From the NCBI RefSeq assembly GCF_002119405.1, contig NZ_MTBG01000008.1, forward strand, positions 52,263 to 116,262: DNA of 64,000 nt. Direction: 5' to 3'. The stretch is from Pseudoruegeria sp. SK021. GTDB taxonomy: Bacteria > Pseudomonadota > Alphaproteobacteria > Rhodobacterales > Rhodobacteraceae. The stretch's first letter is position 1. Each line of letters begins with the position of its first letter. The notes beneath the pieces were generated by a model. The model was not told the DNA's origin and did no database searches. It worked only from the letters and a program-made list of their open reading frames with translations. Positions 21,167 to 29,322 of this stretch are shown one piece after another. A program made the position numbers and the translations under genes.

Positions 21167-21940
21167 CTACATCGCCGTCCAGCCCCCATCGACGCTGATC
21201 GTGGTGCCGGTGATCTGATCCGCCGCAGACGAGCATAAGAACTGAACCACGCCGCCCAACTGTTCAGTGGTCGCAAATTCCTTGGACGGCTGCCGCTCGA
21301 GCAGCACGTCGCGGATCACCGTCTCCCGGTCCATGTCGTACTTTTTCATCGTGTCAGGAATTTGCGCCTCCACCAGCGGGGTCAGCACATAGCCGGGACA
21401 GATCGCATTGGCGGTGATCGGATCGCGCGCGGTCTCCAGCGCGACCACTTTGGTCATGCCCACCAGCCCGTGCTTTGCCGCCACATAGGCCGACTTGAAC
21501 GGCGAGGCCCGCAGCCCATGCGCCGAAGCGATGTTGATCACCCGGCCCCAGCCCGCCTTACGCATGATCGGCAGCGCGGCAGCGGTGGTGTGGAACGCCG
21601 AATTCATGTTAATCGCGATAATGGCGTCCCATTTTTCAACCGGAAATTCGTCAATCGCGGCCACATGCTGAATACCGGCATTATTAACCAGAATATCGCA
21701 ACGCCCGGCCTGTTCAATCAGCGCCCGGCATTGATCGCCTTTCGACATGTCCGCCTGAATATAGCGGACCTCGACCCCATGCTCTTTTGCCAGCTTTTCA
21801 GCCAAATCATGATCTTCCTGACTGTCGGAAAAGGAATTCAAAATAATATTGGCACCGGCAATGGCCATTTCTGTGGCGATGCCCAAACCGATTCCCGAAT
21901 TCGACCCGGTAATGACTGCGGTCTTGCCTTTGAGAGTCAT
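21167..21940 (-). CDS. bdhA: D-3-hydroxybutyrate dehydrogenase
   Basis: A short-chain dehydrogenase converting 3-hydroxybutyrate to acetoacetate with NAD. TGSNSGIGLGIA binds NAD, NNAGIQHV follows, and the active site is Ser in NIASAHGLRASPFKSAYVAAKHG with Tyr-X3-Lys. The QHVAAIDEFP segment and C-terminal SVDGGWTAM are typical of PHB-degrading BdhA. The ATG at 21940 gives 257 residues. It is probably the first gene of a two-gene unit with the patatin. Confidence 0.92.
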   Translation of the reverse strand: MTLKGKTAVITGSNSGIGLGIATEMAIAGANIILNSFSDSQEDHDLAEKLAKEHGVEVRYIQADMSKGDQCRALIEQAGRCDILVNNAGIQHVAAIDEFPVEKWDAIIAINMNSAFHTTAAALPIMRKAGWGRVINIASAHGLRASPFKSAYVAAKHGLVGMTKVVALETARDPITANAICPGYVLTPLVEAQIPDTMKKYDMDRETVIRDVLLERQPSKEFATTEQLGGVVQFLCSSAADQITGTTISVDGGWTAM

Positions 21941-22092: not shown

Positions 22093-22120
22093 AAAAAAAA
22101 ACGCCCGCACAAGGCGGGCG
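22093..22120 (-). terminator. Orphan rho-independent terminator of the candidate sRNA
   Basis: CGCCCGC (22102-22108) pairs with GCGGGCG (22114-22120) across a five-base loop. On the minus strand it is followed by nine T. The nearest upstream minus-strand gene lies beyond 26 kb, so the terminator is not explained by a coding transcript. Confidence 0.85.
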
Positions 22121-22169
22121 CTAAGTTATTGAGGCAGGTTTCATACAGGCAAGAAACCTATCGAGCAGT
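22093..22169 (-). ncRNA. Candidate small RNA, about 77 nt
   Basis: A TATATT/TTGGAG promoter with a 17-base spacer would start transcription near 22169. The predicted RNA has a first hairpin with 7-bp stem AGGTTTC/GAAACCT and a ten-base loop carrying CTTGCCTG. A linker with CCTGCCTCA follows, then a GC-rich terminator with a nine-T tail, a shape typical of Hfq-type sRNAs. Both CTTGCCTG and CCTGCCTCA are complementary to sequence just upstream of the binding-protein start at 28183, and seven-base parts also match upstream of 22274. No known sRNA family is claimed. Confidence 0.6.
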
Positions 22170-22175
22170 GATTTC

Positions 22176-22204
22176 AATATAAGCAATAGATGCACGACCT
22201 CCAA
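22176..22204 (-). promoter_or_regulatory. Sigma-70-type promoter for the candidate sRNA
   Basis: Read on the minus strand, TTGGAG (22204-22199) and TATATT (22181-22176) are 17 bases apart, four of six and five of six matches to the consensus hexamers. A start about 7 bases downstream gives a compact RNA ending at the terminator. Confidence 0.5.
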
Positions 22205-22273
22205 CCCAAAAGTTTGAGAAACCATAAAACTTTCGATAAGCTCTGAGCCAACACCACGACAGGCAGGACCCCG

Positions 22274-24091
22274 ATGACCCCCCATAAATCCGTCACCAAG
22301 GCGCTTTGCACCCTTATTGCGTTAATAGTTCTTAATGTTTCGCCGCCCGTCGCGGCCGAGCCCAGTCATGGCATAGCTATGTATGGCGACCCGGCCCTTC
22401 CACCGGATTTTGTGTCCTTACCCTATGCGAATCCCGACGCCCCCAAGGGCGGACGAATCGTTTTTGGCGAACGGGGGGGATTCGATTCGCTCAATTCGCA
22501 CATCCTGAAAGGCAACGCGCCATGGGGAATGCGCCTGCATGTGTTTGAATCGCTGCTCGGGCGAAACTGGGATGAACCCTTCACGCTTTACGGTCTTTTG
22601 GCAGAATCAGTCGAAACCGGACCGAATCGTGACTGGGTAGACTTCACCCTGCGCCCCGAGGCCCAGTTTTCCGATGGCAGCCCTGTCACCGTCGACGATG
22701 TGATCTGGTCAATCGACACTCTGGGCACCGAGGGCCACCCGCGATTCGCTTCGTCCTATGCCAAGATTGCCGAGATGACCCAGACCGGGCCACGGTCGCT
22801 GCGGATCACCTTCAACACCGCCGACCGGGAATTGCCGCTGATCATGGGCCTGCGCCCGATCTTTCAGAAGGCGCAGTGGGAGGGGCTGGATTTCGCGGCC
22901 AGTTCTATGCTGCCGCCCATCGGATCCGGGGCCTATACTGTGACCGAAGCCATCCCCGGACGCAGCCTGACTTTCACCCGCAACCCGGATTATTGGGGGC
23001 GCGATCTGAACTTCAATCGCGGCCAGCATAATCTGGACGAGATTCGTTATGACTTCTTCGCCGATGCGGGGGTGATTTTCGAAGCCTTCAAGGCTGGCGA
23101 GATCACGTCCTATCGCGAAGGCAACGCCGCCCGCTGGACCGACAGCTATGATTTCGACGCGGTGCATGACGGCAGGATCACCAAATCCGAAATCGCGCAT
23201 CGCCGCCCCACCGGCATGACCGGGCTGGTTTTCAACACCCGCCGGGACATCTTTGCTGACTGGCGGGTGCGCGACGCCCTGCTGCACGCCTTCAATTATG
23301 AATTCATCGCCCAAACCCAGACCGGCGGCGTTGACCCGCGCATCCCGTCCTATTTCGGCAACTCGGTACTGGCCATGCAAGACGGGCCTGCCTCCGACGG
23401 CGTGCGGGCCTTGCTGGAGCCTTTTGCCGATGACCTGCTGCCCGGCGCGCTGGAGGGCTATTCCCTGCCGGTCTCGGACGGATCGGAACGCAACCGCGCC
23501 AACATCGTCATCGCCACCAATCTGCTGCGCGAGGCGGGCTGGACCCCGGTCAATGGCGTGCTGACCAATGCCGCCGGGCAACCGTTCACCTTCGACATCT
23601 TGCTGCGGCAGGGCTCGGCCGAATATCAGGCCATCGTCAATATTTACGTGCAGGCGCTGAACCGTCTCGGCATCAGTACCACGGTGACGACCGTGGATAG
23701 CGCCCAGTACAACCAACGCACCAGCGCGTATGATTTCGACATGACCTTCTACAATATCGCCCTGTCGCTCTCGCCGGGCAATGAACAAACACTATACTGG
23801 GGCAGCGAAGGGGTGACCGCTCCGGGCACCCGCAACTGGATGGGCGTCAACAGCCCCGCCGCTGAGGCCATGGTCGACACGATGCTGACCGCCACCACCA
23901 ATGAAGACTTCACCGATGCCGCCCGGGCCTTGGACCGCATCCTGACCACCGGGCGCTATGTCATTCCGCTGTGGTTCTCGAATGTCTCGCGCATCGCCCA
24001 TTCCAGCAGCTTGCATTACCCCGACGCACTGCCCGTCTACGGCGACTGGACCGGGTTCCAGCCCGATGTCTGGTGGTTTGAGGCCGAGTAA
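22274..24091 (+). CDS. Periplasmic oligopeptide-type ABC substrate-binding protein (YejA-like)
   Basis: A 605-residue SBP_bac_5 protein with a signal peptide ending near VSPPVAA-EP. HGIAMYGDPALPPDF and PYANPDAPKGG are typical of the YejA branch, which binds peptides or microcin C-like compounds. FTLRPEAQFSDGSPVTVDDV is the family core. Start is the ATG at 22274, after GGCAGGA. No permease or ATPase genes follow, so its transporter partners must lie elsewhere. The candidate sRNA is divergent about 100 bases upstream. Confidence 0.9.
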   Translation: MTPHKSVTKALCTLIALIVLNVSPPVAAEPSHGIAMYGDPALPPDFVSLPYANPDAPKGGRIVFGERGGFDSLNSHILKGNAPWGMRLHVFESLLGRNWDEPFTLYGLLAESVETGPNRDWVDFTLRPEAQFSDGSPVTVDDVIWSIDTLGTEGHPRFASSYAKIAEMTQTGPRSLRITFNTADRELPLIMGLRPIFQKAQWEGLDFAASSMLPPIGSGAYTVTEAIPGRSLTFTRNPDYWGRDLNFNRGQHNLDEIRYDFFADAGVIFEAFKAGEITSYREGNAARWTDSYDFDAVHDGRITKSEIAHRRPTGMTGLVFNTRRDIFADWRVRDALLHAFNYEFIAQTQTGGVDPRIPSYFGNSVLAMQDGPASDGVRALLEPFADDLLPGALEGYSLPVSDGSERNRANIVIATNLLREAGWTPVNGVLTNAAGQPFTFDILLRQGSAEYQAIVNIYVQALNRLGISTTVTTVDSAQYNQRTSAYDFDMTFYNIALSLSPGNEQTLYWGSEGVTAPGTRNWMGVNSPAAEAMVDTMLTATTNEDFTDAARALDRILTTGRYVIPLWFSNVSRIAHSSSLHYPDALPVYGDWTGFQPDVWWFEAE

Positions 24092-27918: not shown

Positions 27919-28155
27919 GTGAACTGTGTCTTTGTGCAAATCCGATGCGTGCCCGGAACCACCTATAAAGTGGCCGACGAGATTACCTTGCGCGAACTGC
28001 ATTCCGAACTTTACTCGACCAGTGGAAATTTCGACCTGCTCCTGAAGCTATATGTGCCAGATGGCGTGGACATCGGAAAATTCATCAATGACAATCTGCT
28101 TGACATCAAAGGAATCGAGCGGACGCTGACAACGCTGACCTTCAAGGCGTTCTGA
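27919..28155 (+). CDS. Stand-alone RAM-domain (Lrp/AsnC ligand-binding) protein
   Basis: A 78-residue protein with only the effector-binding domain of Lrp/AsnC regulators (FVQIRCVPGTTYKVADEI, ending IERTLTTLTFKAF) and no helix-turn-helix. GTG at 27919 follows GAAGG by ten bases. Such proteins can bind amino acids or mix with full-length Lrp proteins. It lies 27 bases upstream of a binding-protein gene on the same strand, so it may be part of that operon and sense its ligand. The function is inferred. Confidence 0.8.
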   Translation: MNCVFVQIRCVPGTTYKVADEITLRELHSELYSTSGNFDLLLKLYVPDGVDIGKFINDNLLDIKGIERTLTTLTFKAF

Positions 28156-28182
28156 GGCAGGCAAGAACAAAGGGACAGACGA

Positions 28183-29322
28183 ATGAAACTTCTTCACATG
28201 CTAGGTGCCGCGACCACGGTCATGTCGCTGGCCGGACTGGCCGTGGCCGAGCCGGTGAAAGTCGGGATGATCACAACCCTGTCCGGGGGCGGCGCAAGTC
28301 TGGGCATCGATGTCCGGGATGGCTTCCTTCTGGCGCTGGAGATGGCCGACGCCCCCGATATCGAACTGGTCATTGCCGACGATCAGCAAAAGCCTGAAAT
28401 CGCAGTGCAACTGGCCGATGAAATGATCCAGAGCACCAAGGTCGACGTCATGACCGGAATCATCTGGTCCAACCTCGCCATGGCGGTGGTGCCGGCGGCG
28501 GTGGCACAGGGCAAATTCTATCTGTCGCCCAATGCTGGCCCCTCGGCTTTGGCGGGCGCGGGATGCAGCCCCTATTACTTCAACGTCGCATGGCAGAACG
28601 ACAACCTGCACGAAGCGGCCGGCGCCTATGCCAATTCGGCCGGGTTGAAAAATTCGTTCCTGCTGGCCCCGAACTATCCGGCCGGTCAGGACGCGCTGAC
28701 AGGCTTCAAGCGGTTCTACGAAGGTCAGTTGGCGGGTGAGCTGTTCACCACCCTCGGTCAGACCGATTACGCCGCCGAGATCGCTCAGATCCGGGCGTCG
28801 GGTGCCGACAGCGTCTATTTCTTCCTGCCCGGCGGCATGGGGATCTCGTTCCTCAAGCAATATGCCGATAGCGGCGTGGAAATTCCGTTGATCGGACCGG
28901 CCTTCAGCTTTGACCAAGGCATCCTGCAAGCCGTCGGCGATGCAGCGCTTGGGGTGAAAAACACCTCGCAATGGGGCAAGGATCTGGACAACGCGGCCAA
29001 CATCGCCTTCGTCGACGCCTTCGTCGCCACCTATGGCCGCCTGCCGTCGCTCTATGCCAGCCAAGGCTATGACACCGCCAACCTGCTGCTCAGCGCCATG
29101 GACAAGGCCGACGTCCACGATGCCGCCGCGTTTCAGGCGGCGTTGGAAGAGGCCGATTTCGCCTCGGTGCGCGGCGATTTCGAATTCGCCCCCAACCACC
29201 ACCCGGTTCAGGACTTCTATGTCCGCGAGGTGATCAAGGAAGGCGACGTCTACACCAACCGCATCCTCGGCGTCGCACTGGCCGACCGGGCCGACGCCTA
29301 TGTCGCCGAGTGCAAGATGTAA
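28183..29322 (+). CDS. Branched-chain-amino-acid-type ABC substrate-binding protein
   Basis: A 379-residue Peripla_BP_6 protein with a signal peptide cleaved near GLAVA-EPVKVG. VGMITTLSGGGASLGIDVRD and DDQQKPEIAVQLADEMI are family-typical. The ligand may be an amino acid or an aromatic compound. No LIV permease or ATPase genes follow. AAAGGGA provides the ribosome-binding site. The 15 bases starting at the stop codon of the preceding gene (28153-28167) match complementary segments of the candidate sRNA. Confidence 0.9.
   Translation: MKLLHMLGAATTVMSLAGLAVAEPVKVGMITTLSGGGASLGIDVRDGFLLALEMADAPDIELVIADDQQKPEIAVQLADEMIQSTKVDVMTGIIWSNLAMAVVPAAVAQGKFYLSPNAGPSALAGAGCSPYYFNVAWQNDNLHEAAGAYANSAGLKNSFLLAPNYPAGQDALTGFKRFYEGQLAGELFTTLGQTDYAAEIAQIRASGADSVYFFLPGGMGISFLKQYADSGVEIPLIGPAFSFDQGILQAVGDAALGVKNTSQWGKDLDNAANIAFVDAFVATYGRLPSLYASQGYDTANLLLSAMDKADVHDAAAFQAALEEADFASVRGDFEFAPNHHPVQDFYVREVIKEGDVYTNRILGVALADRADAYVAECKM

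Follow-up and report, generated by a model that had tools for sequence, protein, structure and literature searches.

Small regulatory RNAs (sRNAs) that pair with the ribosome-binding site or the first codons of an mRNA block ribosome loading and may speed the decay of the message. In GcvB and AbcR, an exposed segment can cover ribosome-binding sites, and the target of SorY is takP, a transporter gene. Here, we describe a predicted sRNA gene on the minus strand of a 64,000-nt stretch of the genome of Pseudoruegeria sp. SK021 (contig NZ_MTBG01000008.1, positions 52,263 to 116,262; the whole stretch is "the window" below). From comparison of sequences, we give a probability of about three in four to the reading that this locus encodes a Rhodobacteraceae-wide sRNA that represses ddl, the gene for D-Ala-D-Ala ligase, through two-site pairing with the start of its mRNA.

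In plan, the predicted RNA is nearest to suhB / MmgR (RF00519), an alphaproteobacterial sRNA, with which it shares a length of 77 nt, a 5′ hairpin, an exposed C-rich linker, and a terminator with a U tail, but it scores 22.3 of 41 bits, and the letters of the hairpin, loop, and linker differ. It resembles GcvB and AbcR in having an exposed segment; in contrast to them, it has no Rfam match at the gathering score and its conserved target appears to be a cell-wall enzyme rather than transporters. Neither the RNA nor the ddl leaders that were scanned match an Rfam family at its cut-off, and only tRNA reaches the gathering score in the window. We take ddl to be a dcw gene, and StsR of Rhodobacter sphaeroides, an RNA of 72 nt, is an interesting parallel in that it concerns the same dcw cluster. 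StsR (with UpsM) is reported to act on that cluster by binding the leader before mraZ, not ddl (PMC8307010, PMC8625941). We rejected StsR as the identity of this RNA: in a by-eye comparison, the published probe GGACAGTGAAGGTAGAACGG (PMC11354728) had no counterpart in the locus. SorY (RF02651), which is described as a Rhodobacter sRNA with its own promoter (PMC6238624), was also rejected (12.3 of 111 bits). In the main text of a study of Paracoccus denitrificans, "intergenic 60" (80 nt) and "intergenic 134" (84 nt) are reported to be widely conserved in Rhodobacteraceae (PMC5107571). One of these may be the same RNA, judged by size and distribution alone; that main text lists other predicted targets for them and mentions neither ddl nor D-alanine. 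Similarly, the main text of a study of Ruegeria pomeroyi sRNAs gives D-alanyl-D-alanine carboxypeptidase as one predicted target of trans83 and does not mention ddl (PMC4809877). In one search of open-licence papers, we did not find sRNA, ddl, peptidoglycan, and Rhodobacter together, nor were the letters of the hairpin found in such papers.

We read 58 homologous loci whole (L001-L058: the 35 best matches and 23 picked as weak, double, or odd, with genomes G155 and G266 appearing twice). The elements of the locus in the window are:

22093..22169 (minus strand): predicted sRNA gene, about 77 nt; start placed where conservation sets in, with the T run as its end
22199..22204 (minus strand): -35-like TTGGAG; CTTGG or TTGGA is present in 33 of the 35 loci L001-L035
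22176..22181 (minus strand): -10-like TATATT; TATAAA-type in many other genera
22205..22216 (minus strand): CAAACTTTTGGG box, abutting the -35 on its upstream side; possible activator site
22160..22169 (minus strand): 5′ segment ACUGCUCGAU; predicted to seed the pairing with ddl codons 2-4
22135..22160 (minus strand): hairpin UAGGUUUC-UUGCCUGUAU-GAAACCUG
22129..22138 (minus strand): linker CCUGCCUCAA, whose predicted partner is the ribosome-binding site of ddl; its CCUG sits in the hairpin arm
22093..22122 (minus strand): intrinsic terminator with a 9-pair stem and nine T

Read 5′ to 3′, the minus strand thus has TTGGAG, 17 nt, TATATT, ACTGCTCGAT, the hairpin TAGGTTTC-TTGCCTGTAT-GAAACCTG, the linker CCTCAATAACTTA, the terminator stem, and nine T that run to 22093. 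The hairpin arms (UAGGUUUC at 22160-22153 and GAAACCUG at 22142-22135) form seven Watson-Crick pairs and one U.G pair around a loop of 10 nt (UUGCCUGUAU). Judged from conservation, the probable first base of the RNA is the A of ACTGCTCG (22169), which would make it about 77 nt long; its predicted 5′ end reads ACUGCUCG. The predicted fold has an energy of −25.0 kcal/mol (z = −3.24 relative to shuffled sequences). The 5′ segment is predicted to be unpaired apart from G8 and U10, and so is the linker apart from its first bases. The terminator was the first match listed in a terminator scan. The promoter was not among the matches of a promoter scan that required 9 of 12 consensus letters. A first-pass annotation, made from the sequence of the window, had described the promoter-like boxes, the hairpin, the linker, the nine-T terminator, and an RNA of about 77 nt, and every coordinate checks out. 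It had based its pairing predictions on a segment of the hairpin and on the linker; those matches are real, but it did not use the most telling segment, which is the exposed 5′ end ACUGCUCGAU.

The 5′ end of the RNA (CUGCUCGA) is complementary to TCGAGCAG, and TCGAGCAG is found at or just after the ddl start codon in 58 of 80 relatives. Another 10 of the 80 have TCGGGCAG, in which an A-to-G change replaces Ser by Gly and keeps a G.U pair with the RNA. (These 80 named ddl loci are the best 80 of at least 583, and the 5′ segment played no part in finding them.) Relative to shuffled leaders, the predicted duplex of the 5′ segment with the ddl leaders had a mean z of −3.49, with 76 of 80 below −2. 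There was no such signal for the next gene (mean z = +0.41, 2 of 79 below −2), the interior of ddl (+0.24, 2 of 80), or bdhA (+0.18, 2 of 46). The linker provides the second predicted contact: its GCCUCAA is complementary to TTGAGGC or GAGGC at the ddl ribosome-binding site in most of these relatives (linker duplex mean z = −1.26, 15 of 80 below −2). Of 84 ddl leaders, 70 have GAGGC in the last 35 nt ahead of the start, and it is 12-24 nt before TCGAGCAG where measured. As the order in the mRNA is ribosome-binding site, start codon, TCGAGCAG, the two sites run antiparallel to the linker and 5′ end of the RNA. Many of the ddl loci (L187-L266) also have a short GC hairpin-like repeat (of the GGGCC..GGCCC type, with varying letters) about 20-40 nt before the ddl start and ahead of the ribosome-binding site, which is perhaps a structured ddl leader.

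The ddl gene lies outside the window, and it also stood out in a ranking of about 700 predicted starts (701 ranked, from about 860 kb with a crude start prediction) in the host genome. It came out on top of the 701 with either segment, at −15.3 kcal/mol with the 5′ segment and −20.8 kcal/mol with the linker, and also with their sum (−36.1, with the runner-up at −28.5). Seed counts gave a less clear picture. In the host genome, TGAGGCAGG has 35 sites, as compared to 11 for a reversed control. In the 7 genomes of the genus, the linker complement TTGAGGCAGG has 50 sites, as compared to 35 for the reversed control; six of the 50 fall in the sRNA gene, so such counts carry little weight by themselves. 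Four of the TTGAGGCAGG sites (L142, L150, L163, and L166) directly precede ddl (P0001, D-Ala-D-Ala ligase by Pfam), and the same leaders hold TCGAGCAG as well. In 6 of the 7 genomes, a hairpin-like stretch separates CGAGCAG from GAGGCAGG in the ddl leader. Here the first site is upstream of the short leader hairpin and outside of the coding region, and the match to the linker is extended to GAGGCAGG. The ddl leader of G006, also of this genus, has only GAGCAG and a weaker CAGGCGG. The two-site pattern GAGGCN{4,14}TGTCGAGCAG is found in 202 of the 394 genomes of the family, as compared to 22 for a reversed control, and of the 30 family matches listed, 22 lie at the start of ddl. Outside of the family, none of the 30 matches listed from a sample of the class is ddl. 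At one locus (L294, in G203), the two-site motif precedes a frame that begins MSSRAAVKVVV, was not recognised as ddl, and is perhaps a degraded or duplicated ddl start.

The RNA itself is conserved across the family and is mostly present once per genome. A whole-genome search with the locus found homologs in all 7 genomes of the genus and in 385 of the 394 genomes of the Rhodobacteraceae. In the class sample (385 genomes), strong matches occurred only in its 5 family members; 8 weak matches outside of the family (29-36 bits) resemble shared terminators and were rejected as homologs. A 39-nt block, ACTGCTCGATAGGTTTCTTGCCTGTATGAAACCTGCCTC, is identical in 53 of the 58 loci that were read whole, and outside of it the promoter spacer and the terminator vary. 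For a covariation count, we used one locus per genome (56 rows in an alignment fitted to a model, leaving out 14 weak, probably unrelated rows). All 8 terminator pairs that were counted had changed on both sides, with 99.6% of cells paired, and none of 500 shuffles reached any of five covariation measures. In contrast, 7 of the 9 pairs of the first helix are invariant. Thus, by sequence, the terminator is conserved as a structure and the 5′ part as letters. A CAAACTTTT box upstream of the -35 is present in 33 of the 35 loci L001-L035 and absent from the most diverged members; its position suggests a regulator, possibly an activator. The promoter boxes, the hairpin, and the pairing segments are conserved, and to this extent the original proposal of an intergenic sRNA with an intrinsic terminator that probably acts in trans is supported. 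Conserved complementarity to a distant mRNA start, by which a trans-acting sRNA is recognised, is found at ddl. The neighbours of the sRNA gene, and the other genes and sites of the window that concern us, are:

22274..24091 (plus strand): SBP_bac_5 extracellular solute-binding protein gene, divergent neighbour of the sRNA gene
21170..21940 (minus strand): bdhA-like SDR gene, on the same strand as the sRNA gene and downstream of it
28153..28167 (plus strand): complementary site TGAGGCAGGCAAGAA before 28183, not conserved
28183..29322 (plus strand): Peripla_BP_6 binding-protein gene, the target proposed earlier

The divergent SBP_bac_5 gene adjoins the RNA in 56 of 58 loci (in L044 and L056 the sRNA gene is not next to it), and the bdhA-like gene is within the flank in 45 of 58. 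Among L010-L045, the SBP_bac_5 start is often exactly 154 nt from the sRNA linker, and there is a recurring leader around AACAAGGGCAGAGCAGGATTGTTGCCAAAATG.

It might be argued that TCGAGCAG and GAGGC are present at ddl to serve translation initiation or the protein, and that their match to the RNA is a coincidence. TCGAGCAG does encode Ser-Ser-Arg, GAGGC is at the expected position of a ribosome-binding site, and the ddl site is missing from some lineages that have the RNA. We consider this explanation unlikely. The residue before Ser-Ser-Arg varies, and the 10 loci with Gly instead of Ser preserve pairing by the G.U pair. Also, the Arg (codon 3 of the site) is encoded by AGG or AGA in 70 of 80 loci, as compared to 4.1% of the 1423 Arg codons in the bodies of ddl genes; the use of rare codons at the site favours selection on the letters of the RNA over selection on the protein. 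Furthermore, as noted above, the motif is outside of the coding region in the window's genus, and beyond the family none of the listed motif matches is ddl.

The first-pass annotation had instead proposed that the RNA blocks translation of transporter binding proteins, as GcvB and AbcR-type sRNAs do, with 28183 as a target and perhaps 22274. The local observations behind this idea hold: TGAGGCAGG at 28153-28161, CAGGCAAGAA at 28158-28167, and the ATG at 28183 were confirmed, and the perfect 9- and 10-nt matches are rare (with the linker and again with the loop, the 28183 leader comes second among the 701 starts). However, TGAGGCAGG is kept in none of 33 orthologs of 28183 (29 from other genera and 4 from the same genus, searched from −150 to +60 nt of the start), an outcome that the annotation had itself listed as refuting its proposal. 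Without conservation of the site, pairing with 28183 cannot explain the conservation of the RNA. (At the cut-off applied, two genomes of the genus have no 28183 gene.) Within the site, TGA serves as the stop codon of the frame that comes before it, and many relatives use GGGAGA- or GGAGG-like sites closer to the start. Among the leaders of 28183 and its orthologs, just 2 of 34 have GAGGC in the 35 nt before the start, and the 5′-segment duplex has a mean z of +0.61 (n = 34); in the host genome, 28183 ranks 319 of 701 for the 5′ segment and 13 for the combined score. There may be a species-specific effect on 28183. The case illustrates how a locally impressive match misleads when conservation goes unchecked. 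As for 22274, which adjoins the RNA in nearly all loci, its leaders give little beyond shuffled leaders for the loop (mean z = −0.48) or the linker (−0.57) and a weak signal for the 5′ segment (mean z = −1.01, 13 of 53 below −2; n = 53, leaving out L048 and rows without a clear ATG or GTG start). The full RNA against 57 leaders of 22274 orthologs gave a mean z of only −0.55, which includes one artefact at −12, and the ranks of 22274 in the host genome were 361 (5′ segment), 34 (linker), 7 (loop), and 99 (combined) of 701. So, 22274 may be a weak second target, but with no conserved pairing at 28183 and weak pairing at best at 22274, control of binding-protein mRNAs in the manner of GcvB or AbcR seems improbable. 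Less probable still is a role for the terminator as a cis attenuator of the bdhA-like gene, within the 5′ leader of that gene. That gene is on the same strand, with the T run about 150 nt upstream of its start in the window, and it is often in the flank; but it is absent from the flank in 13 of 58 loci and more than 1 kb away in L003 and L009, in contrast to the SBP gene, and bdhA leaders have no complementarity to the RNA. Finally, the window contains an ATG-to-stop frame of 7 codons (ATGAAACCTGCCTCAATAACTTAG) within the RNA, which could encode a tiny peptide. We give this hardly any credence, as indels break the frame and the stop in relatives such as L002 and L004 and no ribosome-binding site was seen before it.

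Several observations weigh against repression of ddl, or limit how far it extends. Among the 11 genomes with diverged RNA loci and a readable ddl start, 6 lack TCGAGCAG at ddl (G393, G200, G060, G372, G023, and G065; in this order L280, L282, L283, L284, L286, and L287). All 6 keep the RNA, and its 39-nt block carries at most three changes. As for other diverged genomes, G320 and G324 have TCGGGCAG, the G.U site, and G089 and G108 have the exact site. In G035, the RNA begins AAUGCUCGAA and the ddl site is rearranged, with TTCGAGCA before CTGAGGCAGG, which fits one changed base of the RNA and not another. (G242 also has a ddl without the site, but the RNA match there is marginal in the family search and absent with the model.) As some deep branches have the RNA without the ddl site, the RNA must have other partners, and pairing with ddl may have been gained or lost in the course of the family's history. 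In the window's own genus, the two sites are in crossed order and cannot form a simple nested duplex with one RNA, so that filling both would take a second RNA molecule or an unusual fold; the linker match there also requires the CCUG of the hairpin arm, which is predicted to be paired. The linker signal at ddl is only moderate by itself and overlaps a ribosome-binding site, which is expected to be G-rich. The loop gives no signal with ddl leaders (z = 0.01), so pairing with ddl leaves the constancy of the hairpin and loop unexplained. The 5′ block varies too little to reveal covariation between the RNA and its target. Choosing the best 80 ddl loci over-represents relatives with a similar ddl. 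When the full RNA was compared to whole leaders, where long weak duplexes compete, ddl ranked only 51 of 701, and the two-site pattern alone is not specific, as it occurs in 95 of the 385 genomes of the class sample. The 9 family genomes without an RNA match are 70-92% complete and so are unusable as natural deletions; of the 7 of these with a ddl match, 3 have exact TCGAGCAG, 3 have a similar sequence, and 1 has nothing alike.

Repression of ddl would proceed as follows. The RNA would be made from its own promoter, as the conserved promoter-like boxes and terminator suggest, and Hfq might help it, with which only the U tail is consistent. It would then cover both the ribosome-binding site and the first codons of ddl, as a two-site clamp that blocks translation; less Ddl would be made, and the supply of cell-wall precursors would slow. 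With somewhat less assurance, we lean towards the broader view that this nearly invariant and ancient family-wide sRNA is a dedicated brake on ddl that clamps both sides of the start codon, and that in the window's genus the pairing persisted even as the mRNA sites shifted.

The Rhodobacteraceae include abundant marine bacteria as well as model phototrophs. If ddl is indeed the target, then the enzyme that joins D-Ala to D-Ala would be under direct RNA control in these bacteria, and a highly conserved sRNA with an essential predicted target would tie the state of growth or stress to the supply of cell-wall precursors.
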